Assembly: GCA_018398805.1 (NCBI GenBank)
Contig: JAGFBZ010000258.1
Coordinates: forward strand, 1,364,001-1,428,000
DNA: 64,000 bases
From: Hirundichthys speculiger
Lineage: Eukaryota > Chordata > Actinopteri > Beloniformes > Exocoetidae
Direction of reading: 5' to 3'
Shown here: in pieces, positions 11,909-50,522 of the stretch
Position numbering within the stretch: position 1 is the stretch's first letter
Layout: each line of letters begins with the position of its first letter
Program-made: the position numbers and the translations under genes
Notes under the pieces: model-generated
The model's database searches: none
The model's input: only the letters and a program-made list of their open reading frames with translations
Told to the model about the DNA's origin: nothing

Positions 11909-12211
11909 TACGGTGGCCCGTACGGTCAAACACAACAGAAAAGTGCGACACGCTATTGCAAAACTCACAACACAACACATTAACCCACAACGGAAATGCG
12001 ACAGACTGCTGTTTCTTTGGGAGAGTTTAATGAGAGGTAAGTAAAATGCTGCTGCTGAATGATTGTTATTAATGTCGTTATGTGTTACGTGCATTTTACT
12101 TACTTAAAATATTGTCTGTCGCATTTCCGTTGTGGGTTAATGTGTTGTGTTGTGTGTTTTGCAATAGCGTGTCACACTTTTCTGTTGTGTTTGACCGTAC
12201 GGGCCACCGTA
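11909..12211. mobile_element. 303-bp foldback element with ~98-bp arms
   Basis: The arms at about 11909-12006 and 12114-12211 are almost perfect reverse complements, beginning TACGGTGGCCCGTACGGTCA. A loop of about 107 bases separates them. GATACA flanks both ends (11903-11908 and 12212-12217), a likely 6-bp target duplication. No coding capacity. Superfamily not assigned. Confidence 0.8.
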
Positions 12212-18689: not shown

Positions 18690-19198
18690 AGAAGCTGTAC
18701 CCTCAAAGTAGCACAAATAGTGTACATAGAAGTTGTAGTTCTTTGGCTCTGGCACCTCCATGCATTCAGTGGTGATGCTGAATAGCTGGACAAGAATATT
18801 GTTTGCGGTGCCGTTTGCAGTTCTTACCGAAAGAGTTTGTGGTGTTTCCAGGGCATTTTCCCTCACTAACAGTGAAAGGAGAGTTCCACAAAATTGTAAT
18901 CTGCGATGTGTATCCAATTGCATTTGAGAAATATTTAAATCTAGTTCCTTTAAAGGATTTTCTTTGGTCTTTGGTGACTGGAACCATTGATTGCACTCAT
19001 GTTCCAGTTCATAGAGCCTTGGGAGAACACAAGGGCAGCTTTGTCAAAAGAAAGGCCTTTTGGAGCATCAATATTCAGGTAAAATCAGTTGTGGGTTGGA
19101 ACATTGTTTAGTGTGCCAGGTATAAATTACTACATCCTTTAGATTCTTCACCGTTACCCCCTCATTATGATGTTAATCTGACATAATCATGGAGATGA
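18690..19198 (+). pseudogene. Harbinger (PIF/HARBI1-type) transposase remnant, 5' part
   Basis: Plus-strand frames give, with shifts, FGSGT..MHSV, then a degraded GDAE-LDKNTVC block, then EFVVFPGHFPSLTVKGEFHKI, then GTIDCTHVPVHRALGEHKGS, then FVKRKAFWSINIQ. The 'GTIDCTH' block holds the first catalytic aspartate of PIF/Harbinger transposases, and 'FVNRK.FHSINVQ' normally follows. After SINIQ comes a donor (CAG|GTAAAA at about 19078), and an acceptor lies near 19187 (GGAG|ATGACTTGTGAC). The next exon starts ATGACTTGTGAC (MTCD, compare the usual 'MICD') and is cut at 19206 by the hAT element. It continues at 33788. Stops and shifts make it non-functional. Confidence 0.75.
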
Positions 19199-19206
19199 CT
19201 TGTGAC
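19199..19206. repeat. 8-bp target-site duplication, left copy
   Basis: CTTGTGAC lies immediately left of the hAT terminus at 19207. The identical 8 bases lie immediately right of the opposite terminus at 33780-33787. Confidence 0.85.
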
Positions 19207-19566
19207 CAGGGCTGGACTGGGACCAAAAAATGGCCCGGGCATTTTTGATCCCTGGCGGCCCACCATACGCCGGGGATCAAAAATGCCGGTTATTTATACG
19301 ATATGCGGAAGCACATGCTGCATGTTGTATACTATGTGCACATAGTGAAGTTTCAAAAATTAAAATAAAGTGGTGTTAGTGTCCCTAGTGTTACTTCTGT
19401 CTACCAATTATTTATCATGCATTTCAGCAAAGCAATGTTTCACTAATATTTTAACACACTTAACACTGTAAATTGGACACCAAATCTACTCAAAAGCATT
19501 ATTTGACAACAAAGACTAAACCACACACAGACACACACACACACACACACATACACACAGAAACCA
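19207..19566 (-). repeat. hAT 3'-end segment with (CA)n, first copy
   Basis: Near-identical to 32676-33011. It includes the terminus, GATCAAAAATGCCGGTTATT, and a CA-rich tract (about 19523-19557) that leads directly into the tRNA-Leu gene. No coding sequence. Confidence 0.85.
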
Positions 19567-19649
19567 GTCAGGATGGCCGAGTGGTCTAAGGCGCTGCGTT
19601 CAGGTCGCAGTCTCCCCTTGAGGCGTGGGTTCGAATCCCACTTCTGACA
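19567..19649 (+). tRNA. tRNA-Leu (anticodon CAG)
   Basis: 83 bases with a complete class II cloverleaf. The acceptor stem GTCAGGA pairs with TTCTGAC (one G-U) and has discriminator A. The D-arm is GCC/GGC, and box A TGGCCGAGTGG is intact. The anticodon stem CTGCG/CGCAG is perfect around loop TTCAGGT, giving anticodon CAG at 19600-19602. A leucine-type long variable arm follows. The T-arm GTGGG-TTCGAAT-CCCAC is perfect, with box B GGTTCGAATCC. It differs from the usual vertebrate tRNA-Leu(CAG), as I remember it, at only a couple of positions. It is the most intact of six copies in the array. The downstream sequence has only TTT within 15 bases, a weak Pol III terminator, so transcripts could read on into the SINE-like body. 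It sits inside a hAT insertion. Confidence 0.88.
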
Positions 19650-19752
19650 GCTCTTTATCGTCAGGTTTGGCCTTGAGTCCCAGTTGCTTCAACATCCAAT
19701 GTGAGCCGAATCAATCGTGTGAATCACTTTGCTGTGGAGACTGAAATAGAAT
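19650..19752 (+). repeat. SINE-like body following the tRNA-Leu gene
   Basis: GTTTGGCCTTGAGTCCCAG, then CCAATGTGAGCCGAATCAAT, then CGTGTGAATCAC and CTGTGGAGACTG. This follows every full tRNA-Leu copy in the array (also 20185-20292, 28654-28762, 29588-29698, 30931-31026, 31466-31576), and occurs without a full tRNA near 20515-20640, 28890-29015, 31111-31172 and 31706-31762. It aligns with the body of the independent SINE at 51762-51932 (shared CCAAATCAATC, GTG..TCA, CTGTGG.GAC). Confidence 0.75.
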
Positions 19753-20101
19753 ATCCAACTGGCGATTCGTCTGTCCATCTAACCAACTGGATTTCTGTCT
19801 GTCCAACTGTCTATTCATCTATCTATCTGTCTGACCAAATGGTGATTCGTCTGTCCATCTATCCAACTGGCTAGTGGTCTGTCCATCTATCCAACTGGCG
19901 ATTCGTCTGTCCCTCTATCCAACTGGCTGTTCGTCTATCTATCTATCCAACTGGCTGTCCATCTATCCAACTGGCTATCCGTCTGTCCATCTAACCAACT
20001 GGATTTCCATTTGTCCATCTGTCCAACTGTCTATTCATCTATCTATCTATCTAACCAACTGGCTATTCGTCTGTACATCTATCTACCACTCACACACACC
20101 A

Positions 20102-20184
20102 GTCAGGATGGCCGAGCGGTCTAAGGCGCTGCGTTCAGGTTGCAGTCTCCCCTTGAGGCATAGGTTCCAATCCCACTTCTGACA
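20102..20184 (+). pseudogene. tRNA-Leu-derived copy 2
   Basis: 83 bases. The acceptor stem and anticodon CAG are kept, but the T-stem is broken (ATAGG against CCCAC) and box B has a G to C change (GGTTCCAATCC). Probably not an efficient tRNA gene. Confidence 0.8.
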
Positions 20185-20499
20185 GCTCGTTATCATCAGG
20201 TTTGGCCTTGAGTCCCAGTTGCTTCAACATCCAATGTAAAACCTGAGCCAAATCAATCGTGTGAATCACTTCGCTGTGGAGACTGAAATAGAATATCCAA
20301 CTGGCTATCCGTCTGTCCATCTATCCAAATGGCTATTCGACTCTCCATCCATACAACTGGCTATCCGTCTGTCTATCTATCCAACTGGCTGTCCATCTAT
20401 CCAACTGGCTAGTGGTCTGTCCATCTATCCAACTGGCGATTCGTCTGTCCCTCTATCCAACTGGCTATCCGTCTGTCCATCTAACCAACTGGATTTCCA

Positions 20500-20520
20500 G
20501 GATTCGAATCCCACTTCTAC
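20500..20520 (+). pseudogene. Stray tRNA-Leu T-arm fragment
   Basis: GGATTCGAATCCCACTTCTA and C, equal to the 3' end of the tRNA-Leu, joined directly to satellite on the left and to the SINE-like body on the right. Same junction at 28873-28893 and 29919-29939, so it spread by duplication. Confidence 0.75.
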
Positions 20521-21459
20521 AGCTCTTTATCGTCAGGTTTGGCCTTGAGTCCCAGTCTCTTCAACATCCAACATCCAATGTAAAACCTGAGCCAAATCAA
20601 TCGTGTGAATCACTTCGCTGTGGAGACTGAAATAGAATATCCAACTGGCTAGCCGTCTGGATTTCCAACTGTCTATTCATCTATCTATCTATCCAACTGG
20701 CTATCCGTCTGTCCATCTATCCAAATTGCGATCCGTCTGTCCATCTATCCAACTGGCTATTCGTCTGACCATCTATCCAACTGGTTAGTGGTCTGTCCAT
20801 CTAACCAACTTGTATCTGTCCTGTCCATCTAACCAATTGGATTTCTGTCTGTCCAACTGTCTATTCATCTATCTATCTGTCTGACCAAATGACGATTCGT
20901 CTGACCATCTATCCAACTTGCTATCCATCTATCCAACTGGCTTTTCGACTGTCCATCTATCCAAACTGCGATCCGTCTGTCCATCTATCCAACTGGCTAT
21001 TCGCCTGATCATCTATCCAACTGGCTGTTCGTCTATCCAACTGGTTAGTGGTCTGTCCATCTAACCAACTGGCTATCTGTCTGACCATCTATCCGTCTGT
21101 CCATCTAACCAACTTGATTTCTGTCTGTCCAACTGTCTATTCATCTATCTATCTGTCTGACCAAATAGCGATTCGTCTGACCATCTATCCAACTGGCTAT
21201 TCGTCTGACCATCTATCCAACTGGCTGTTCGTCTATCCAAATGGTTAGTGGTCTGTCCATCCAACCAACTGGCTATCTGTCTGACCATCTATCCAACTGG
21301 CTATCCGTCTGTCCATCTAACCAACTGGATTTCTGTCTGTCCAACTGTCTATTCATCTATCTATCTGTCTGACCAAATGGCGATTTGTCTGTCCATCTAT
21401 CCAACTGGCTATCCATCTGTCCATCTATCTACCACTCACACATACACAAACACACACCA

Positions 21460-21495
21460 GTCAGGATGGCCGAGCGGTCTAAGGCGCTGCGTTCA
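21460..21495 (+). pseudogene. tRNA-Leu-derived copy 3, 5' part
   Basis: First 36 bases of the tRNA, through box A to TGCGTTCA in the anticodon loop, then cut by the 7.1-kb transposon. The rest lies at 28600-28653. Confidence 0.85.
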
Positions 21496-21520
21496 AGCTG
21501 GGGAACAATCGGCCAGGTAA

Positions 21521-21602
21521 GATGGGGAAGAAAGGGGAAGAAGGGGGAAGAAGAAAAAGGAAGGGGAAAGGGAAAAAAGAGAAAAAGAAAGAGAAAAGAC
21601 GA
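21521..21602. repeat. Purine-rich tract
   Basis: About 80 bases of almost only G and A (GATGGGGAAGAAAGGGGAAG onward) close to the left end of the 7.1-kb transposon. Confidence 0.9.
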
Positions 21603-22471
21603 GCATTCGTGATCATAACACTCTGTTTCATGCACCATTAGCCACAGAAACAGTAGTTTAGAATGTTTGATACTTTTGAAAGACTTCGCCTGGATTCGAA
21701 CCCGCGAGTGTGGTAAATGGTGCGTTCAAGGTAAACAGAAAATAGATCTGCCCTGCAGACACATTTCTTTTTTAAATAATCATGTAATAACTATGTAATT
21801 GTACTATATGTATCAGTAATATTATTTATATTTGTTTATATGAGTACAGACACTGACATATTTGAAATCTGTCATGTCTGTTGATAATTATGTGATATTA
21901 TTAACATTATTAATGTGTTATTCTTTGTGTTTCCTCTTCCACTTACCTGGAGAACTGGGATGCTCAATGCAGGTGGATATCATCACTTGGAGCTTTCCAT
22001 TGCCAGCCTTCATTCTGCAACATCTCCACATGAAACCACCTCCTATATTTGCATCTACTTCACAATTAAGTCCTTGTCATTTATCTTTGTTTGTGGCATC
22101 TAATGTTGCTTTTTCAGGTTTCTTTTATGTTGTGTGAAATGAATTTTGTAAATAAACATTTTTAAAAATTCAAAATTGTTGTTGTTTTAATGTAATAACT
22201 CAAAAAAACACCCAATTTCTTCTTCAAGTTTTACAATATTTAATTATAACAAATAAATAATGCAAACAGAACAGAAACACACAAAACAGTTCTTAATGTT
22301 AATTAAACACTTAATAAAATTACAAAAAATTAAATAAATATATATATATATAATAAAAATAAATAAAATAAAAAAAATAAAATAAAAAAAAATAAAAAAT
22401 AAATAAAAAAAAATAAAAAAAAAATATTAATAAAAAAAATATTTAAACTATTTACAACTATTTACAATCAA
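21603..22471. other. 3' flank inside the 7.1-kb transposon
   Basis: Minus-strand GGTTCGAATCC at 21691-21701, with CGCG before it, looks like an isolated tRNA T-arm. A plus-strand AATAAA at 22151-22156 follows a short open frame ending at 22137, so a small plus-strand transcript could end here, but nothing supports coding. From 22325 to 22445 the sequence is A-rich AAATA-type low complexity. Confidence 0.45.
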
Positions 22472-22724
22472 TTATTTAAGGAAATTTCTCCTCATCTCCT
22501 CCAACCATTGCTGCTTTGTGAGTGCCTCGAAATTCGGGCAGTACACTTTCCCACGGAAGTGACTGTGGCCAGTCTCTGCTGTGCGGAACTGGCCACATTT
22601 CTTGCAGGTGTTTGCCTCCACAGTCCTTCTGTATGGCCTCTTCGGGGTGGGACCAGCTGTCACAGGCAGGACATATTGATAAAGAACAACAGGTTGTCCT
22701 GCCTGTGTGACAACCTGTGGGACA

Positions 22725-22845
22725 ACTGAGGCTGCTGGGGCTGCTGGGGCTGCTGAGGCTGCTGGGACTGCTGAGGCTGCTGAGGCTGCTGGGACTGCTG
22801 GGGCTGCTGGGCTGCTGGGACTGCTGAGGCTGCTGGGGCGCTACA
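22725..22845. repeat. Gln/Pro-coding trinucleotide-type tandem repeat
   Basis: Tandem GCTGCTGGG/GCTGCTGAG nonamers. On the minus strand they encode QQPQQSQQP-type sequence in the C-terminal region of the transposase. The reading frame slips inside it. Confidence 0.9.
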
Positions 22846-23749
22846 AACAAACACCTGGCACTTTTAGGCAGGATGGGGCGTGGTGTCTGACTGTGCTTCG
22901 CCTGACCTGCTGTGTTTTCAGGTAGCTGATATATATGCTCCTGCTGTGCTGGGACAGGTTCTGCAGGGAGGACTCTGACCTCCTGAAGCGGCTCGTGTGA
23001 CACTGGGATCACTGGAGGTAAATCGGTTCCTTGCAGCAACACAGAGAGCTCCTGTCTCTTCTGCCTGCTGTTGTGCCATTGCACAAGCGTGTTTTGATTT
23101 ACCTCCACCAGCTGTATTTGAGTTCCCTGCATCACACGGGCATTGCCGAGAACAAGTCCCCTGATTTTACGATAGTCCCTCAAAATTAGAGACCATCTCG
23201 AAGCTGCCCCCTTGCCTTTCTTTTTAGGGCTTGGGTGGAGACTACAGAGCCTAATAAAAATATTCTCCACCAACCTGCAGCAATCAGGCCACTGAGCTGG
23301 TGCACTGCTTGCACCGAGGAAGCAGCGGGTTGTGCTCTCCACACCTGGTGTTTTTGAGGGCCTCTTTGGTGTCCTAAAGCGTCCACTCAAAAGTCTGTCC
23401 TGGTGCCGTGCTGCATAAATGACCCGCTGCTTGTCGCTGTCATCCAGGCTCTCCCAGAGCTCCAGTATTCGCCCTGCCTGCAGGTTGCTGAGACAGAGCG
23501 AAGACTGATCCCGTAGCCCGACCAAGTACTCAGCCAGTCTGTCCACGTGTTGGTATCCGGGCACATTCTGGTCATCCACAGCCTATAAAAAAATTAATTG
23601 GCAGAAAATAGAAAATTTTAAATAAATGTAGATCCACTAATGACACCAATGATGACTGATGCTTTAGTTTCAATAAAATATGTGCAACAACTGGTACTTA
23701 CCATAGTTTCATCGTCAGCTGAAGTATCTCCAGCCTCAGGAGCCAGTGT

Positions 23750-23880
23750 GGAGGTGGTGTAGTCACGGGCCATCATGGAGGAGGAGATTCCAGGAGCTGG
23801 TGTGGAGGAGGAGGTGGTGTCACGGGCCAGCATGGAGGAGGAGGTGCCACGAGCCAGAGTGGAGGAGGAGGTGCCAGGAG
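23750..23880. repeat. Coding minisatellite in the transposase gene
   Basis: Tandem units of about 27-33 bases around GTGGAGGAGGAGGTG and CACGGGCCAG. On the minus strand they encode LARGTSSSM-like repeats. Confidence 0.8.
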
Positions 23881-26800
23881 CCAACTGGTAGGTAACAGGA
23901 GCAGGAGCAGGAGAGGCTGAAGCCTGTTGAACCTCCAGATTCACTACTGTGGGGTCATCTGTGAGGTCAGAAAACCCCTCATCTTCCTGCTCATCAGCCC
24001 CCACTTCATGCTCCTCGACCAACTGGGCAGTCTCTTCTGAATCCGGGTTCATGTCCTGCAGCGCCTGACCAGTTTGCTGGAGCAAATACTGCACCCCTAT
24101 GAGCTCTCCTAAGACGAGAAAAAAAATAAATGAGGCACAATGCAGAGTGGAATGACTAAAACCTCATCAGCTGTTCAAAAAGGACTAAAATCACCTTGTA
24201 TGGCTGTAAGAACCATGAAAATCATGAAAAATATATACATAGTATAGTAAATGTAATAATTATTAATAAAAATCAAATCAGAGATGCAGCCTCAGGCTCA
24301 GTAATACTGATTTAATTCTTACCTGTGTAACGCGATGGCGGACAGAACTCTGGTGCCACCTTTCTGCCAAAAAGCTGCTGATAATTTTTATTGACAGAAT
24401 GCAAGAGGTCACCAGAGTAGCAGCGCAGAGGAGGTGACTCGATAGCAAGGGCAGCAACACGCCGGTCCTGGTTCCACCTATGCAGCCCTTCCAACAGGTA
24501 AACCTGAAAATTCAGGCTGTTGGCACTGGTCCCTGGAAGTACATTGAAATATAACATGAGATATCAAACTGTTGACATACACAAGACATGAACCATGATA
24601 GACACAAACCTGGTATGAAGCGGTTGAGATGGAGATGAAAGGACTCCAATGAAGTGGAGCCTCTAGCACACCTCAACACTTGTAGCTGCACACCTCCCTT
24701 GGTCAGCTCCCCAGTTTTGGTGTAGAGAGCAACACCTGGTGGGTCTTGGATGCACTTAACATGCTTTTTCTGAACCCGCCAGATGTGCTCCATCCTCTCA
24801 CTGTCAAACAGGGGAACTCCAAGGGAGTCATTGCCTCGGGAGCCCATAAGTTGCAGAGAAGAGCTCCTCCAGAAGCCTGATGGTGGTGTCCTCTCCCCGT
24901 GTCCTCCTTCGGCAATGGAGAGCCAACTCGTCCCTGGTCAGGTGTCTGTCGACATCCACCGAAGACAGACCCTGGGCCTGAAGCTGCTTGGCCTTTGCTT
25001 CACGCAAGAGCGCTAAATCAGCAGCATCCCACTCAAAAATGCACGCTGAGAGGCGTGACATGAAAAGCGGGTAGAGCTGATGGGCGTCTGTGGTGCATTC
25101 CAGGGCGAGCCGCCGCATGAAGTGCCAGATGTCCAGCCTTACGACAAGTTGTGGCCAGCCGTTGAATCTGGCCTGCAGCTTCGTTGTCTCAGCTGCCTCA
25201 GTACAGCAGCCGCAGTCCACATACAGGACAACAGGGGGATCCACACCGGCCTGGGGCATACCTCCTCACCAGGTCATTAGCCATCTTGTCCAAACCAGCT
25301 CCCTCCTGAGCGGTCAGGACGCTGATTAAAATCTGTCCATACTCATTGCCCACAGATGTCAGCCAGAGAGCCGTCCCCTTTGCTGTCCCAGCCAGCTTCT
25401 TTGTTATCTGAAGCACAAAGAACACAAACACAAACACAAAACACTTAATATGAGAATAATGAAATGAAATTCAGGCAGTAGTTCATCATCAGTAGCCTAT
25501 TATGAAAACAAAATAAGATTGCTCAACCTTTTTGTGGAGTCCATTTTTAATATGGTGCCATATGTGGAGGTAATATGGGCCTTGATGTCCTCCAGCCTTG
25601 TCAGAATGTCCTGGCTGTAGACGGACAGGAGCCACTTGACGCTGGGGACAACAGCAGGCTCTGGCGGCTCAGGGAAGTCCACAGGTAACAGCCCAGGGCG
25701 CCGGAGGAAGGACACACATTCTGTGTGGTGTAGCGTGCCACGCGATGCAGCCACTCCTCTGCGTGGTTCTCCCTGAGCTGCTTTAGAACCCGCGTTGGGC
25801 TGTTACCCAGGCCCCTCTCCCGCAGCATCCGAATCACCCGGATATCACAGGCGTACCTTGGTCAAAAGATAAATATGTCAGTCGGAATGTTCTACAGAAT
25901 TAATTTTGACACAGCAAAAGAGAAAAAGAGACACTACTCACTTTTGAGTCATGATGACCCGAAATTCTGACCTGTGAGCCAAGTCCAGCTGTTGTAGGAC
26001 AGCTTGGCTCCAGGAAACGTGCGAGGCTTTGCACTTCCCGCAGGTCAGTGTCTCTGTGACCATATTATAAATACGGTCAACATCCAGGACTCGCCGTGCC
26101 CTCTTATGCAGCCCTGCCCCGGTCAGCTGGTGCCCACCACAAGCAGGTTTGGGGCAGATCAACCTCACCTTCCACAGCTTGTAAGGCATCCAGACAAGCA
26201 GTGGGTGGGCAAAAAAGCGGTCTGGTGAAGGCGCCTGGTGATAAAGATTCATCGGCTGAGGTGGGTAGTACCACAGCTTCAGATTATCTCTGCAGCTCTA
26301 ATTTACCCCTGGCCCCCGTCTTAAACAAGACTTTGACCATCCACCTATGGTCTTCTTGTGGTAAGCCGTCTGCCCACAAGCGCGGCAGATGTGGGGTGGA
26401 AGGAGCGGACTGGAGCTGTGATGCAGAGTCAGCCTTCAGATAAACAAACAAAAGAATGTAGAATCATACTTTGTATTGATGAAATGCACTGCTGAAGTTG
26501 TGTATATGAGACAAAATGTTAGATCACTTACTGACACAGAAGCAGCTACCACTGGCACTTCTATGTGAGCCTCTGTCTGCTGGTCTTGAGCCTAAAAAAG
26601 TTTAGTAGAATATTTAAACTGTTGATGTTGTACATAGAAGAAGCTCTGCAGTTGCTATTTGAGTAACTATTTAAGTACCTGGGTCTGTCTCCTGGCCACA
26701 GCAAGATTTGGCTTTGCCGCAGCAACATGTGCACCTCCAAATCTTGGCTTGTTAAACTAAAAGGCAATAAACAACCAATTCATGAAGCCATTCAGTGATC

Positions 26801-26929
26801 AAAATGTAAAATATCTGAGGTCAATGTGTGAGTGTCAAACACTAAACCAATACCATTGACAAATGCAGTGGTGGTCGCTGCTTGTGGCCTTCAGCTCCCC
26901 CTGCAGTCGCCACTGAAGCCCGCGGTCCA

Positions 26930-27010
26930 GGTGTCGTCTGTGGTGGTCCCGATGTCCTCTCTGGTCCCGATGTCCTCTCTGGTCCCGATGTCATCTGTGG
27001 TCCTGATGTC
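26930..27010. repeat. Short coding tandem repeat in exon 4
   Basis: Near-identical 18-base units GGTCCCGATGTCCTCTCT repeated about three to four times; on the minus strand they encode (ERTSGP)n. Confidence 0.85.
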
Positions 27011-27596
27011 GTCTGGGCAGATGGCTGCTGTTCCATGACAATATGTATATACCAATTATACACTAATAATAGCATATAATTATAATCATACACTAATAAT
27101 TGTATATAATTAAAAACTAGTTTTATATTAATATATAATTAGTCAGTTTGTAAGATGGCATTTGTACTCTGCTACCAGAGAGACCTGGGTTAATCCTACC
27201 TTCTCCATGTGGAATCCACAGACACACCTCCGCACGCTGCCAAATAAAGACTGGGCACCAGACTGCATTGGACATTTCTCAATCTAAAAAACAACAGTTG
27301 CAGATTGAAATGCATTTCATTCAGGTGGTTATGTTTTATGGTTAGAGATCTTATTTGAATATCACAACTGTATCAGCGTGTCAGAAATGTTACTGCATTT
27401 GTTGTAGTGATCAATAAATAGTCCCATACCTTTTGATACAGTCCGTGCCACTTTTTTCTGCCTGGGTGCTGGTCGGTTTCCCTCAGGCCATGTCCCCGTG
27501 CTGGTGAAACGCCTAAGACGTGCCATCCAGACAGTGTCTGGCATCCCCTTGTGTGTCTTGGATGATGTAGCCTTTGGTGTCAGATATTAAAAGATA

Positions 27597-27607
27597 TATA
27601 TATATTA

Positions 27608-27652
<45 letters not shown>

Positions 27653-27663
27653 GTATATTATAT
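27597..27663. repeat. TA/CA microsatellite in intron 1 of the transposase
   Basis: ATATAT, then a CACACACACA run, then TATATATATA, in the intron between exons 1 and 2. Confidence 0.9.
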
Positions 27664-28019
27664 TATAATGAGTTTATTAGAATTGAATGAGTTATCTTTT
27701 ATGTGCTCTGTGATGCTTTACTGTATCCAACACTGATTACAGATCAGCTGGCTGAAAGTTAAAGCTAGTACTACTAGCTGACTAACAGCAGCAGCAGTGA
27801 ATCCCAGTGAAAATGGCGTCAGTGGCGTCAAATGGCGTCATTCGAGTTATTTCGGCACAGTTTTTTTTTTTTTTTTTTCGTTTCATTTACATGTTCATTA
27901 CAGTGAAACACGTTCAGTGTTCATTACACCGGAGGTTTTTATATGTTCATTACAACTTGTACGTAACTAGTAATGAACTTGTAAATACCTCCGGCTCAGT
28001 ATCTGGTGTACAGTTACAG

Positions 28020-28598
28020 TAGACGTTACTACCGGCTGACGGCGCCGGCTTAAAGTTCATTCATTCACTAAATGAATGAAAAAGAATAAAAAAACAGCGC
28101 AACACGACGGGTTTAACACATACAACATATTAGGTTGTGTCATTATATCATATAGCACCGTTAAACCAATGTTAACAGCGAATACAGGTAAATTATTTCC
28201 GTCAGGTAACGGTGCAGGTAAAGCTAACGGAAAAATATCGCAATGACAACATGACACACGACGTAAAGTTATTTTCATACATCAACACACATCGTACAGC
28301 ACCGTCATAAATGTGTAAAAACTCACCATATCGCAGAAAACACGGACTTTTGTCACCGGGTAAAATAATTACTGACCGTCGCTGAATCGCTCTGAACGCC
28401 TCCGTGAGGTTACCAGGGGAACTGTCGACTTCAACATTGCTCGTTCCTGATTGGTCGAATGTTGAAAATGTTGAAATGCGGGGACGCTGATTGGCGGAGA
28501 ATGTTGAAAAATGTTGAAAAATGTTGAAAATGCTGAGACGTGATTGGCCGTCGCGTTTCAACATTTTCAACATTTCCCCGGACGATCCTTCGGCAGCT
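28020..28598 (-). promoter_or_regulatory. Promoter and subterminal repeats of the 7.1-kb transposon
   Basis: On the minus strand this precedes and includes the first exon, with ATG immediately before the donor at 28327. At 28455-28580 the motif ATGTTGAAA occurs about six times directly and twice inverted (TTTCAACATT); such subterminal repeats often bind a transposase. A hairpin TTCATTCATTCACTAAATGA lies near 28057. Function inferred. Confidence 0.45.
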
Positions 28599-28599
28599 A

Positions 28600-28653
28600 G
28601 CGTTCAGGTCGCAGTCTCCCCTTGAGGCATAGGTTCGAATCCCACTTCTGACA
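28600..28653 (+). pseudogene. tRNA-Leu-derived copy 3, 3' part
   Basis: GCGTTCA (target duplication), then the anticodon 3' side, variable arm and T-arm. Box B GGTTCGAATCC intact; T-stem weakened (ATAGG against CCCAC). The complement of 21460-21495. Confidence 0.85.
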
Positions 28654-29504
28654 GCTCTTTATCGTCAGGTTTGGCCTTGAGTCCCAGTTGCTTCAACATC
28701 CAATGTAAAACCTGAGCCAAATCAATCGTGTGAATCACTTCGCTGTGGAGACTGAAATAGAATATCCAACTGGCTATCCAGCTATCCGTCTGTCCATCTA
28801 TCCAACTGGCGATTCGTCTGTCCATCTATCCAACTGGCTATCCGTCTGTCCACCTAACCAACTGGATTTCCAGGATTCGAATCCCACTTCTACAGCTCTT
28901 TATCATCAGGTTTGGTCTTGAGTCCCAGTTGCTTCAACATCCAACATCCAATGTAAAACCTGAGCCAAATCAATCGTGTGAATCACTTCGCTGTGGAGAC
29001 TGAAATAGAATATCCAACTGGCTATCCATCTGTCCATCTATCCAAATAGCTATTCGACTGTCCAACTGTCTATTCATCTATCTATCTATCTATCCAACTG
29101 GCTATTCGTCTGACCATCTATCCAACTGGCTAGTGGTCTGTCCATCTATCCAACTGGCTATCCGTCTGTCCATCTAACCAACTGGATTTCTGTCTGTCCA
29201 ACTGTCTATTCATCTATCTATCTGTCTGACCAAATGGTGATTCGTCTGTCCATCTATCCAACTGGCTAGTGGTCTGTCCATCTATCCAACTGGCGATTCG
29301 TCTGTCCCTCTATCCAACTGGCTGTTCGTCTATCTATCTATCCAACTGGCTATCCGTCTGTCCATCTATCCAACTGGCTATCCGTCTGTCCATCTAACAT
29401 ACTGGATTTCCATTTGTCCATCTGTCCAACTGTCTATTCATCTATCTATCTATCTAACCAACTGGCTATTCGTCTGTACATCTATCTACCACTCACACAC
29501 ACCA

Positions 29505-29587
29505 GTCACGATGGCCGAGCGGTCTAAGGCGCTGCGTTCAGGTTGCAGTCTCCCCTTGAGGCATAGGTTCGAATCCCACTTCTGACA
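29505..29587 (+). pseudogene. tRNA-Leu-derived copy 4
   Basis: 83 bases. Anticodon CAG and boxes A and B are present, but the acceptor stem has GTCACGA (one G to C mismatch) and the T-stem is weakened (ATAGG). Probably a pseudogene, though promoter boxes are intact. Confidence 0.8.
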
Positions 29588-30847
29588 GCTCGTTATCGTC
29601 AGGTTTGGCCTTGAGTCCCAGTTGCTTCAACATCCAATGTAAAATCTGAGCCAAATCAATCGTGTGAATCACTTCGCTGTGGAGACTGAAATAGAATATC
29701 CAACTGGCTATACGTCTGTCCATCTATCCAAATGGCTATTCGACTCTCCATCCATACAACTGGCTATCCGTCTGTCTATCTATCCAACTGGCTGTCCATC
29801 TATCCAACTGGCTAGTGGTCTGTCCATCTATCCAACTGGCGATCCGTCTGTCCATCTATCCAACTGGCGATTCGTCTGTCCCTCTATCCGTCTGTCCATC
29901 TAACCAACTGGATTTCCAGGATTCGAATCCCACTTCTACAGCTCTTTATCGTCAGGTTTGGCCTTGAGTCCCAGTCTCTTCAACATCCAATGTAAAACCT
30001 GAGCCAAATCAATCGTGTGAATCACTTCACTGTGGAGACTGAAATAGAATATCCAACTGGCTATCCAGCTAGCCGTCTGGATTTCCATCTGTCCATCTAT
30101 CTATCTATCCAACTGGCTATCCGTCTGTCCATCTATCCAAATTGCGATCCGTCTGTCCATCTATCCAACTGGCTATTCGTCTGACCATCTATCCAACTGG
30201 TTAGTGGTCTGTCCATCTAACCAACTTGCTATCTGTCTGTCCATCTAACCAACTGGATTTCTGTCTGTCCAACTGTCTATTCATCTATCTATCTGTCTGA
30301 CCAAATGACGATTCGTCTGACCATCTATCCAACTTGCTATCCATCTATCCAACTGGCTTTTCGACTGTCCATCTATCCAAATTGCGATCCGTCTGTCCAT
30401 CTATCCAACTGGCTATTCGCCTGATCATCTATCCAACTGGCTGTCCATCTAACCAACTGGTTAGTGGTCTGTCCATCTAACCAACTGGCTATCTGTCTGA
30501 CCATCTATCCGTCTGTCCATCTAACCAACTTGATTTCTGTCTGTCCAACTGTCTATTCATCTATCTATCTGTCTGACCAAATAGCGATTCGTCTGACCAT
30601 CTATCCAACTGGCTATTCGTCTGACCATCTATCCAACTGGCTGTTCGTCTATCCAAATGGTTAGTGGTCTGTCCATCTAACCAACTGGCTATCCGTCTGT
30701 CCATCTAACCAACTGGATTTCTGTCTGTCCAACTGTCTATTCATCTATCTATCTGTCTGACCAAATGGCGATTTGTCTGTCCATCTATCCAACTGGCTAT
30801 CCATCTGTCCATCTATCTACCACTCATACATACACAAACACACACCA

Positions 30848-30930
30848 GTCAGGATGGCTGAGCGGTCTAAGGCGCTGCGTTCAGGTCGCAGTCTCCCCTT
30901 GAGGCATGGGTTCGAATCCCACTTCTGACA
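30848..30930 (+). tRNA. tRNA-Leu(CAG)-like copy 5, nearly intact
   Basis: 83 bases. The acceptor stem, perfect anticodon stem CTGCG/CGCAG, anticodon CAG, and boxes A (TGGCTGAGCGG) and B are all intact. The only structural defect seen is one A-C mismatch at the base of the T-stem (ATGGG against CCCAC). It could still be transcribed and perhaps used; it may equally be a young pseudogene of the array. Confidence 0.55.
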
Positions 30931-31382
30931 GCACTTTATCGTCAGGTTTGGCCTTGAGTCACAGTTGCTTCAACATCATATGTAAAACCTGAGCCAAATC
31001 ACTTCGCTGTGGAGACTGAAATAGAATAACCAACTGACTATCCAGCTATCCCTCTGTCTATCTATCCAAATGGCGATTCGTCTCTCCATCTATCCAATTG
31101 GCTATTCGTCCAATGTAAAACCTGAGCCGAATCAGTCGTGTGAATCACTTCACTGTGGAGACTGAAATATAATATCCAACTGGCTGTCTGTCCATCTATC
31201 CAAATTGCTATCCGTCTGACTGTCTATCCAACTGATTAGTGGTCTGTCCATCTATCCAACTGGGGATTCGTCTGTCCATCTAACCAACTGGATTTCCATC
31301 TGTCCAACTGTCTATTCATCTATCTATCTATCTAACCAACTGGCTATTCGTCTGTACATCTATCTACCACTCACACACACCA

Positions 31383-31465
31383 GTCAGAATGGCCGAGCGG
31401 TCTAAGGCGCTGCGTTCCGGTTGCAGTCTCCCCTTGAGGCATAGGTTCGAATCCCACTTCTGACA
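31383..31465 (+). pseudogene. tRNA-Leu-derived copy 6 with CCG anticodon
   Basis: 83 bases. The anticodon loop is TTCCGGT, so the anticodon reads CCG (arginine codon CGG) in a leucine tRNA body. The acceptor has GTCAGAA (a G-to-A change that restores pairing with T), and the T-stem is weakened. Boxes A and B are intact. Most likely a pseudogene. Confidence 0.75.
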
Positions 31466-32316
31466 GCTATTTATCGTCAGGTTTGGCCTTGAGTCCCAGT
31501 TGCTTCAACATCCAATGTAAAACCTGAGCCAAATCAATCGTGTGAATCACTTCGCTGTGGAGACTGAAATAGAATATCCAACTGGCTGGCTGTCGGTCTG
31601 GCTATCCATCTATCCAATTGGCGATTTGTCTGTTTATTTATCTAACCAACTGGCTATTCGTCTGTCTGTCTATCTACCCATGTGTACACTCACACACACA
31701 CCACAAAACCTGAGCGGAATCAATCGTGTGAATCACTTCGCTGTGGAGACTGAAATAGAATATCCAAGTGGCTATTCGTCTATCTAACGAACTGCCTGTT
31801 CGTCCATCAATCCAATTGCCTATTTGTCTGTCCATCAATGCAACTGGCAGTTCCTGTGTCCATCTATCTAATCAATTGGCTATTCGTCTGTCCATCTATC
31901 CAACTGGCTATCCATCTATCCTACTGGCGATTCGTCTGTCCATCTATCCAACTGGCTATTCATCTATCTATCTTTCCAACTGGCTGTTCGTCTATCCATC
32001 TTTCCAACTGGCTATCTGTCTGTCCATCTATTAAACTGGCGATTCGTCTGACCATCTATCCAACTGGCTAGTGGTCTGTCCATCTATCCAACTGGCTATC
32101 CGTCTGTCCATCTATCCAACTGGCTACCTGTCTGTCCGTCTATCCATCTATCCAACTGGCTGTTCGTCTATCCATCTATCCAACTGGTTAGTGGTCTGTC
32201 CATCTAACCAACTGGATTTCTCTCTGTCCATCTATCCAACTGTCTAATTCATCTATCTATCTGTCTGACCAAGTGGCTATTCGTCTGTACGTCTATCTAC
32301 CAATGTGTACACTCAT

Positions 32317-32347
<31 letters not shown>

Positions 32348-32348
32348 A

Positions 32349-32664
32349 TCACCTCCAAATATCTATTCTGACCTCAATCTCGCCCTGCTGCTGGGTCTCA
32401 TCTCTCTCCTCCTCCTCATCCTCCTCCTCATCCTCCTCCTTCTCCCTCTCCTCATCCACTTCTTCTCCGACAACCACCTGTTCACTTGACGGCCCCGCGG
32501 CCCCTGCCCCCGAGCTTGTGGTTGAAACCATTTCCGTGATTTTGGCACATTTTGCTGCATCCACTTTTAATTTTTTTTGTCTCCGTTCTCTGAGCTTTTC
32601 TGCTCCTCCCTTTCGCTTTTGTGCTTTTTTCTCCATTTGCATACTCATCCATGAGCCACCACAC
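32349..32664 (-). pseudogene. hAT transposase first coding exon, copy A
   Basis: On the minus strand the frame starts MSMQMEKKAQKRKGGAEKLR, then RERRQKKLKVDAAKCAKITE, followed by Ser/Gly/Ala-rich sequence and a long Glu/Asp-rich tract (EEDEEEDEEEERDET), ending before donor GGAG|GTGATC at about 32345. This resembles the N-terminus of hAT-family transposases related to ZMYM/TTF-type proteins. The rest of the transposase is absent. A microsatellite (AC)n forms the start of the following intron. A near-identical exon lies at 33017-33330. Confidence 0.6.
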
Positions 32665-33016
32665 TCTCCGGTCAGCAGGGCTGGACTGGGACAAAAAAAT
32701 GGCCCAGGCATTTTTGATCCCTGGCGGCCCACCATACGCCGGGGATCAAAAATGCCGGTTATTTATACGATATGCGGAAGCACATGCTGCATGTTGTATA
32801 CTATGTGCACATAGTGAAGTTTCAAAAATTAAAATAAAGTGGTGTTAGTGTCACTAGTGTTACTCATGTCTATCAATTATTTATCATGCATTTCAGCAAA
32901 GCAATGTTACACTAATATTTTAACACACTTAACACTGTAAATTGGACACCAAATCTACTCAAAGCATTATTTGACAACAAAGACTAAACCACACACACAC
33001 ACACACACACAGGTGA

Positions 33017-33330
33017 TCACCTCCAAATAGCTATTCTGACCTCAATCTCGCCCTGCTGCTGGGTCTCATCTCTCTCCTCCTCCTCCTCCTCCTCCTCCTT
33101 CTCCCTCTCCTCGTCCGCTTCTTCTCCGACAACCACCTGTTCACTCGACGGCCCCGCGGCCGACGGCCCGTGGCCCCCGCCACCGAGCTTGTGGTTGAAA
33201 ACATTTCCGTGATTTTGGCACATTTTGCTGCATCCACTTTTTATTTTTTTTGTCTCCGTTCTCTGAGCTTTTCTGCTCCTCCCTTTCGCTTTTGTGCTTT
33301 TTTCTCCATTTCCATACTCATCCACGAGCC
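33017..33330 (-). pseudogene. hAT transposase first coding exon, copy A'
   Basis: Same exon as 32349-32664, reading MSMEMEKKAQKRKGGAEKLR, but a base change/shift in the poly-A run near 33240-33250 puts a stop after RERRQKK in that frame. The acidic tract is a little shorter and the Gly/Ala part slightly longer. The following intron begins with the same (CA)n tract. Confidence 0.6.
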
Positions 33331-33346
33331 ACCACACTCTCCGGTC

Positions 33347-33779
33347 AGGCCAAACGGCAAAATTTGGTCAGGAGGGATGGGAGGGGCGGGCCAACGAGAG
33401 CTGAGAAATTTCATTGGACTAGCCCAATGTCCGTCAAGAAAATCAACCAATGGGCCACTTCGTGTCTTCGCAAGGCCCCGTCCGGCCTCCACCCCCTCCC
33501 TTCAGCAGAAAATAACGTTCATACTGCGTTCACATCAGCGCAGCACTGTAGCGCTTGTCTGATTAGCTGTCAGTGTCTCTTTCTTGAGTTTGTTGAGTGT
33601 GTGTCGTCGTCACCCCCCCCCTCTCGGAGATTTTTATGAGCTGACTATCAGTCCGTTACCGTCGCGGTCAATAAAAACTATATACTTTTTTTTTTTTTAT
33701 GACAGACCTGGGCCGGCCCACAGACGTGCGTCGGCCCACCGGGCATTGCCCGGTACGCCCGATGGCCAGTCCATGCCTG
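33347..33779 (-). promoter_or_regulatory. hAT 5' end and likely promoter
   Basis: Minus-strand sequence upstream of the first exon: GC-rich, with CCAAT-like motifs (ACCAATGGGCC, TCATTGGACT) and a poly-T run at 33687-33698, up to the terminus. Regulatory role inferred from position. Confidence 0.4.
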
Positions 33780-33870
33780 CTTGTGACCACAACATGATGG
33801 ACACAAGCTTGAAGACTTGTGCATGAATCAGTGCATGATTCATGCATTCTCCTTGGGTCATCACTGGACT
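33780..33870 (+). pseudogene. Harbinger transposase remnant, continuation
   Basis: Begins with the right copy of CTTGTGAC. Reading across the insertion site gives MTCDHNMMDTSL, then after a short decayed part SVHDSCIL, corresponding to the 'WPGS.HDSRI' block with the second catalytic aspartate. This shows the 14.6-kb insertion landed inside a Harbinger exon. Further 3' parts were not recognised with confidence. Confidence 0.65.
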
Positions 33871-49269: not shown

Positions 49270-50522
49270 CAGATAAAATCCTTTCAGTTGTCAAATGCAC
49301 AGCTAAACAAAATTGTTTTCAGACTGAATCTGTACTTTGTCAGAGTTGAGGTCTGTCTCACATCTTCTGGACAACTGATCCAGGTTTTAGGAGCATAAAA
49401 CTAAAACGCAGCTTCACCTTGTTCAGTCCTGACTCTGCACCAGCAGGAGACCACTCCCTGAGGTTCTCAGAGTCCGGGTTGGTTCATATGGTTCAACATG
49501 TCAGAGATGTACTTTGGGACTAGACCAGGGGTCTCAAACTCATTCCTGAAAGGGCCGTGTGGCTGCAGGTTTTTGTTCCAACCATGCAGAAACACAGCTG
49601 AGTTGTTTTAGTCAATCAACTAGTTGTCTTCACTAAAGGTCTGAACCAGTTCAGTTGATTGAGTGAAACAACTCAGCTGTGTTTCTGCATGGTTGGAACA
49701 AAAACCTGCAGCCACACGGCCCTTTCAGGAATGAGTTTGAGACCCCTGGACTAGACCATGAAGAGACTTGTATCCAAGCAGAGCTGTTTTAAAGTCTATT
49801 CTCTGAGTGACAGGAAGCCAGTGCAGAGACCTCAGGACTGGACTAATGTGGTTGTATTTCCTGGTTCTAGTCAGGACTTGAGCAGCAGAATTCTGGATGT
49901 ACTGCAGCTGTCTCACAGCTGGTTTAGAGCCCAGTGAGCAGGCCGTTACAGTAGTCTAACCTGGTGGAGACGAACGCATGGATTAGTCTTTCTAAATCTG
50001 GTTTAGACACTCTTCCATTGATTCTGGCAATGTTTTTTAAGATGGTAAAAAGCTGCTGATGTTATTGCTTTAATGTGGGTGTCAAAGTTCAAGTCTGAAT
50101 CCAATATTACCCCTAAATTTCTGATCTGATTTTTAGGTTCTAGAGAGAGTCTCAAGGTGACTGATAACACTTTTTCTTTGATTCTGTGGGCCACAGACAA
50201 TGATTTCAGTTTTGTCTGAGTTTAGCTGGAGAACATTGTTTTGCATCCACATACTGATTTTTTTGATGCAGTGACACAATGAATCTATACGCCTATGTTC
50301 TCCTGCTGTCAATGACATATAGATCTGAGTATCATTTGCATAGTTGTGTAGGACACATTACAGCTGGGTTTTAGCGGGTCTAATGGAGGCATGCACAGAT
50401 TGAACAATAGGGGTCCCAGGATTGACCCCTGGGGAACCCCACAGGTCATGGCCATTTGGTCTGAGACACAGTTACCAATTTCAACAAAGTATCTCCTGCC
50501 CCTGAGATAGGACTTGAACCTT
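49270..50522 (-). pseudogene. LINE reverse transcriptase, C-terminal half
   Basis: From right to left the minus strand encodes RRYFVEIG, CGVPQGSILGPLLFNLCM (RT motif), then after a shift NYANDTQIYMSL, where families normally have YADDTQ; then NNVLQLNSDKTEIIV, IRNLGVILDSDLNFDTHI, MRQLQYIQNSAAQVLTRTRK, ISPVLRSLHWLPVTQRIDFK and SLHGLVQ. After the MITE the frame continues to a C-terminal block like APKTWIS..DVRQTSTL and YRFSLKTILFS. The active-site change of YADD to YAND and several shifts mean it is inactive. Its intact form would reverse-transcribe its own RNA at the target site. Confidence 0.8.
49526..49748. mobile_element. 223-bp foldback hAT MITE, perfect 8-bp target duplication
   Basis: GACTAGAC flanks both ends (49518-49525 and 49749-49756). 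Arms of about 95 bp starting CAGGGGTCTCAAACTCATTC are almost exact reverse complements, with a short central loop. It is inserted in the LINE coding region, so it is younger than the LINE copy. Confidence 0.9.

Follow-up and report, generated by a model that had tools for sequence, protein, structure and literature searches.

We analysed a 64-kb stretch of the Hirundichthys speculiger genome (hereafter the window; contig C258, positions 1364001-1428000), in which a 14.6-kb block is very probably a copy of a non-autonomous, composite hAT-type transposon that carries a tandem tRNA-Leu/satellite array as its cargo. The array lies between the two ends of a hAT element, which are bordered by a perfect 8-bp target duplication, CTTGTGAC, at 19199-19206 and 33780-33787 (all window coordinates are counted from its first letter), and it sits in the (CA)n of that element, with CA runs at both joins. 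Both features had been proposed in a preliminary description of this DNA, as had the idea that tRNA genes act as hAT cargo, which is borne out by array blocks with their own 8-bp duplications at many dispersed sites. The genome searched comprises 1.04 Gb in 3002 contigs; C-numbers denote contigs and L-numbers fetched loci.

Anatomy of the block

Self-comparison of the window divides the block into segments A, array, B, A', B' and C, in the following arrangement.

19199..19206, no strand: left copy of the 8-bp target duplication CTTGTGAC (sequence match)
19207..19543, plus strand: segment A, the hAT 5' terminus, from CAGGGCTGGACTGGGA up to (CA)n (self-comparison; 393 exact copies of the 16-mer genome-wide)
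19522..19559, plus strand: (CA)n at the left hAT/array junction, a junction type found at 14 sites including the window
19553..21495, plus strand: left part of the tRNA-Leu/satellite array (tRNA, repeat and self-comparison calls)
28600..32300, plus strand: right part of the tRNA-Leu/satellite array (29147-30883 is 94.7% identical to 19752-21495)
32309-32343: (CA)n at the right join of the array
32322..32675, plus strand: segment B of the outer hAT, with an open frame on the minus strand (22 exact array/B junctions genome-wide including the window)
32668..32675, no strand: CCGGTCAG, 8-bp duplication from a nested insertion by the same hAT
32676..33011, plus strand: segment A', the 5' terminus of the nested hAT copy, from base 1 of the terminal inverted repeat
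32990..33348, plus strand: segment B' of the nested hAT, whose final 8 bp are CCGGTCAG at 33341-33348
33349..33779, plus strand: segment C and the hAT 3' terminus, ending in GGCCAGTCCATGCCTG, apparently lacking one of two original C copies
33780..33787, no strand: right copy of the 8-bp target duplication CTTGTGAC

Elements of the hAT superfamily have short terminal inverted repeats starting with CAG. The block ends in CAGGGCTGGACTGGG and, inverted, in CAGGCATGGACTGG; its CAG-type terminal inverted repeats, CAGGGCTGGACTGGGA (from 19207) and CAGGCATGGACTGGCC (the reverse complement from 33779), are equal at 12 of 16 bases and, with the 8-bp duplications, mark the element as hAT-type. Both ends are abundant in the genome, where the 5' 16-mer CAGGGCTGGACTGGGA has 393 copies (199 on the plus and 194 on the minus strand) and the 3' 16-mer GGCCAGTCCATGCCTG has 374 (177 and 197), compared with 0 and 1, and 0 and 0, for the same 16-mers written backwards. 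Within the 64-kb window, CTTGTGAC occurs three times on the plus strand and once on the minus strand.

The array contains tRNA-Leu genes, a common downstream stretch and a satellite of ~28 bp, and its left and right parts share a 1.75-kb duplicate pair, 94.7% identical. Segment A (19207-19543) is repeated as A' (32676-33011) with 97.3% identity, and segment B (32322-32675) as B' (32990-33348) with 90.8% identity. The preliminary description had drawn a single terminus pair; the outer pair stands, and position 32676 adds a further 5' end, which brings the termini to three.

Outside the block, self-comparison of the window finds long near-palindromes at 49517-49757 (89%) and 11909-12211 (77%). 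Just to the left of the block, 18740-19080 reads as a decayed, Harbinger-type endonuclease-like sequence, with a weak Pfam match to DDE_Tnp_4 (E 0.15).

Array-bearing blocks are dispersed in the genome

Blocks of the same build were located through their junctions and ends. The pattern GACTAAACC-gap-CCAGTCAGG has 17 matches genome-wide, of which 14, including the window, are junctions between hAT segment A, (CA)n and tRNA (one of these, C953, with a truncated 5' end), and three, on C2108, are unrelated. The array/B junction, searched as CTATCTACCA-gap-CAGGTGATCACC, has 22 matches, and the end motif yielded six more blocks, on C146, C217, C287 and C290 and twice on C302 (C302a and C302b). All 19 left flanks that we read (the 14 junction sites plus C217, C287, C290, C302a and C302b) are different. 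We read both termini of 11 blocks, 10 of which have matching 8-bp duplications (nine perfect, one with seven of eight bases), all distinct:

C258 (window): cttgtgac, perfect, 14.6 kb
C35: actgtggc, perfect, 34.9 kb
C80: gctgccga, perfect, 8.4 kb
C146: cacgtaag, perfect, 9.8 kb
C217: ctcgtgac, perfect, 26.8 kb
C287: ctcttgcc, perfect, 18.5 kb
C302b: gtccctat, perfect, 14.0 kb
C842: tctccctt, perfect, 10.9 kb
C2311: gacacgag, perfect, 13.3 kb
C290: ggcatacc/ggcacacc, seven of eight, 16.7 kb

These duplications refute a chance pairing of two unrelated hAT ends around a resident tRNA cluster. The sheer abundance of hAT ends is all that speaks for such a pairing, whereas the 8-mers match at 10 of 11 blocks and each perfect match has a chance of ~1 in 65,536, which leaves this explanation with a vanishingly small probability. 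Segmental duplication of a single locus, or its repeated assembly, is also a very unlikely source of the blocks. The A segments are indeed very similar to each other, some contigs terminate at Dada or array copies or close to them, and the right flank of C373 shares its 8-mer with the left flank of C2473, but the 19 left flanks all differ, as do the ten matched duplications, and the flanks of the window occur only once in the genome. Segmental duplication is therefore rejected, save perhaps for pairs such as C373/C2473.

Two resemblances between flanks were seen. The right end of C373 (L085) and the left end of C2473 (L037) both carry the 8-mer accatagg beside the hAT terminus, and these are possibly two haplotypes of one insertion. 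The left flanks of the window (19195-19206) and of C302a (L042) are alike, ATGACTTGTGAC and ATGACTTGTGTT, which may reflect chance, target preference or past exchange.

The dispersed blocks also bear on where the array was acquired. According to the preliminary description, a hAT element landed at this locus first and the array then grew or was captured on site. The data do not support this for the present locus: the same composite of array and nested hAT is present at other sites, where each one tested, except C302a, has its own 8-bp duplication, and the element was therefore probably carrying the array when it inserted at this locus. A 41-mer of the array unit has 202 exact copies genome-wide. 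Listed exact matches to the 5' and 3' end motifs reach contigs C1-C348, and among the matches listed on these contigs there are 12 array clusters; for 11 of them a same-strand hAT end or junction lies no more than ~40 kb away.

Short, array-free family members

A genome search for copies of the hAT with and without the array, suggested earlier, found both kinds. Of the first eight 5'-end loci, five hold elements that lack an array, measure 0.96-1.39 kb and are flanked by 8-bp duplications, one is an array block (L008), and in two the fetched piece has no readable 3' end. The array-free duplications are attacacg, cccataca/cccgtaca, ctgattgt, catccacc and ctgacagg, four of them perfect and one matching at seven of eight bases. 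The pattern in which a short CA run separates segment A from B and no array intervenes has 127 matches, nested inner copies counted. On C1-C348, 87 of the 100 5' ends listed could be paired with a 3' end and 13 have no partner. Seventy of the pairs span less than 2 kb, eight span 2-5 kb, none 5-8 kb and nine 8-40 kb, and array blocks make up eight of the last nine. The ninth wide pair, on C239, has no array unit among the matches listed and was excluded from the count of array blocks. A variant of the outer A segment, TTCTG, was considered as a mark of array-bearing elements and rejected, as the array-free L003 and L006, and likewise L004, have it.

Nested junctions and array borders are shared between sites

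At window position 32675|32676 the nested hAT 5' end begins exactly behind segment B, giving the junction CTCCGGTCAG|CAGGGCTGGACTGG. This junction occurs 17 times in the genome, at 16 loci; at 15 of these the array was read directly beside it, and at the remaining one, C2311, the contig carries an array on the strand of the junction. We examined 23 right ends, namely 21 of the array/B-pattern matches together with those of C287 and the window. The nested junction is present in 13, seven are plain, and the other three show just a nested 3' end with CCGGTCAG behind it. The three are C812, C2557 and C2987, where the nested 3' end is followed by CCGGTCAG (with one extra base ahead of it in C2987) and then by the rest of C. 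C156 has the nested junction on one side and the nested 3' end with its CCGGTCAG junction on the other. Since CCGGTCAG is retained beyond the nested 3' end, a copy of the element appears to have inserted into itself, and some descendants would then have lost one C segment. A single tandem duplication as the source of the A-B-A'-B' order was rejected in favour of this nested self-insertion, as C156, C812, C2557 and C2987 keep the far-side CCGGTCAG. At L056 and at C988:2201198-2201883, the nested A'B' unit is present as a tandem repeat.

Measured against a consensus of 31 aligned A segments, 18 composites carry 0-6 substitutions in ~314 bp of their outer A segment (gaps ignored). Four sites, C80, C431, C2473 and C2549, have a truncated first array unit in common, 97.2-98.2% identical over 330 bp, and their 5' flanks are different. 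C290 (L076, C290:3058700-3059250) and C302b (L043, C302:6069500-6070200) have in common a non-array sequence, starting TGCGCGTTTGTA, straight after the left (CA)n, with 98.3% identity over the 119 bp read; their target duplications differ, and the array lies further in. Within the array of L068 (C2549), one portion runs in the opposite direction to the remainder, with tRNA and satellite on the other strand.

These shared borders weigh against an alternative history, in which the hAT first spread as array-free copies, solo or nested, and arrays were later copied into the (CA)n of many of these by separate CA-to-CA recombination or gene conversion. Such a history would suit the CA runs in which both array borders lie at most junctions read, the CA runs within the array units, and the strong differences between the arrays of different sites. 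It does not sit well with an exact nested hAT junction that is found only with arrays, with a truncated first unit shared by four sites at 97-98%, about the level at which the hAT ends have diverged, or with the non-array sequence that C290 and C302b have in common behind their left (CA)n, although their duplications differ. We consider it improbable.

tRNA genes of the array

tRNA genes were predicted with ARAGORN and rescored against the Rfam family RF00005. All five predictions in the window block reach its gathering score with a cloverleaf fold (33.7-56.4 bits), one of them with an Arg-type anticodon (CCG):

19567..19649, plus strand: tRNA-Leu (CAG), 56.4 bits, the top tRNA score in the block
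20102..20184, plus strand: tRNA-Leu (CAG), 36.2 bits
21460..21495 and 28600-28653, plus strand: 5' and 3' parts of a tRNA-Leu gene split by a Dada insertion
29505..29587, plus strand: tRNA-Leu (CAG), 33.7 bits
30848..30930, plus strand: tRNA-Leu (CAG), 44.4 bits
31383..31465, plus strand: tRNA-Leu body with a CCG anticodon, called as tRNA-Arg, 41.1 bits

Leucine tRNA bodies with other anticodons (AAG, ACG and CGG) are present in the arrays of C146 and C842.

A Dada-tL-type transposon inside the array

The second transposon that the preliminary description placed inside the block is present, and to this we add that it has its own perfect 7-bp duplication, GCGTTCA, within a tRNA-Leu gene:

21489..21495, no strand: left copy of the 7-bp duplication GCGTTCA
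21496..28599, minus strand: Dada-tL-type DNA transposon, 7104 bp, main frames antisense to the tRNA
28600..28606, no strand: right copy of the 7-bp duplication GCGTTCA

Four of its open frames were scanned against Pfam, applying a cut-off; one matches DUF6729 at 25938-26297 (177.8 bits), and the other three gave no Pfam family. In the accessible portions of the two relevant papers, zebrafish Dada-tL_DR is described as targeting tRNA-Leu-CTG with the duplication GCGTTCA (Kojima and Jurka, PMC3706591), and Dada-tL as inserting around the anticodon in opposite orientation to the tRNA gene (Kojima, PMC8869645, where elements of this kind are recorded from fish). The inner transposon lies inside a tRNA-Leu (CAG) gene, is bordered by GCGTTCA and has its DUF6729 frame on the minus strand, with the tRNA on the plus strand. 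Window 21496-28599 thus fits Dada-tL as published in target, duplication and orientation.

Including the window copy, the genome holds 11 full-length matches to this transposon (query base 1 to 7103/7104, 96-100% identity), and their junctions lie in tRNA-Leu sequence near-identical to that of the window. One base of the right-hand duplication is altered at L017, and at L020, the copy with 96% identity to that of the window, the tRNA is degenerate on the left. L020 was left out of the comparison of divergence, as its start was not located. The other 10 copies differ pairwise by 0.13-0.77% substitutions, while anchored array stretches of at least 250 bp that flank them are 75-94% identical. Because the copies are near-identical while the surrounding arrays differ far more, the Dada insertions are later than the arrays. 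Judged from these divergences, they occurred recently and independently, in array units that had already diverged. Common descent of the Dada copies together with the composites is rejected by the same figures.

Discussion

The following course of events would account for the composite hAT. A defective element of ~1 kb would have taken up the array within its own (CA)n, probably because the array units likewise end in a CA run. A second copy of the same hAT would then have inserted into the element, duplicating CCGGTCAG, and in some copies, including that of the window, one of the two repeated 3' segments would have been lost, most simply through recombination between direct repeats. Transposase supplied from elsewhere could have moved the long composite to many sites, with a new 8-bp duplication each time. 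The array in each copy would have continued to expand, contract and duplicate, and Dada-tL would have inserted independently into the tRNA genes of several copies.

Several observations weigh against this reading. The open frames of B and B' gave no Pfam match above cut-off, and L090, a 3.8-kb family member, showed no obvious hAT transposase when read by eye, with no genome-wide transposase search made. The ends of C302a (20.0 kb) do not match (cttgtgtt and cttattat), cluster C11, with one unit, has no hAT end among the matches listed, and several blocks show only one end on their contig or among the matches listed. No empty site was found: the joined flanks of the window, compared with their own assembly, match their own two halves and, as a third match, C2211, which is partial, at 71%, and has only 17 bases left of the join. 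Beyond the first units, the arrays of 18 loci have just three cross-locus stretches of at least 350 bp at 95% identity or more, and, of 153 locus pairs, 22 have a best array match of at least 150 bp with 97% identity or more. With so few long near-identical stretches between sites, the array content would seem to have mostly turned over, and on these comparisons it cannot by itself prove a common origin. Finally, some contigs end at or near Dada or array copies, so that internal lengths may be mis-assembled and the inner order is less certain than the ends.

DNA transposons of the Pack type capture host genes, and satellites can grow inside transposons. The composite hAT resembles these in being a DNA transposon with host sequence, or with tandem repeats, inside the element, and differs from them in that its cargo is a multi-unit array of RNA polymerase III genes, in blocks of 8-35 kb. 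For wheat tRNA-Lys, gene multiplication by transposable elements has been proposed, as the available parts of two papers state (PMC3989483, PMC4298962). There, as here, tRNA genes would multiply by riding in transposable elements; the difference, as far as those parts go, is that in the present case an entire tandem array is contained in a DNA transposon whose ends and duplications are defined. The inner element is like Dada-tL, as described in the portions cited above, in its tRNA-Leu target, its GCGTTCA duplication and its orientation opposite to the tRNA, and differs from the Dada-tL described there in that the host tRNA gene itself lies within another transposon. Those same portions mention a zebrafish Dada-tL_DR flank inside HATN3_DR (PMC3706591) and one Dada-tV copy in hAT-N16_OL (PMC8869645), and contain no mention of hAT-borne tRNA arrays. 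In the open literature, taken by titles and the beginnings of abstracts and with most subscription journals outside it, we found no description of tandem tRNA arrays borne by a DNA transposon.

A DNA transposon that bears tRNA arrays would be a concrete route for the spread of tRNA genes, and a datable one, since the presence or absence of a block with its target duplication can be scored across individuals and species. The composite also suggests where a tRNA-targeting transposon gets fresh targets, namely from genes scattered by another transposon. We speculate, as a possibility that we hold to be doubtful, that this amounts to a three-party mobile system, in which hAT-borne arrays would supply transcribed tRNA genes that alter the tRNA dosage of the host as well as the mobile landing pads on which Dada-tL depends, and in which some arrayed leucine tRNA bodies with changed anticodons, such as CCG in the window, could mistranslate if charged with leucine. 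If so, one transposon would make and spread the safe harbour of another.

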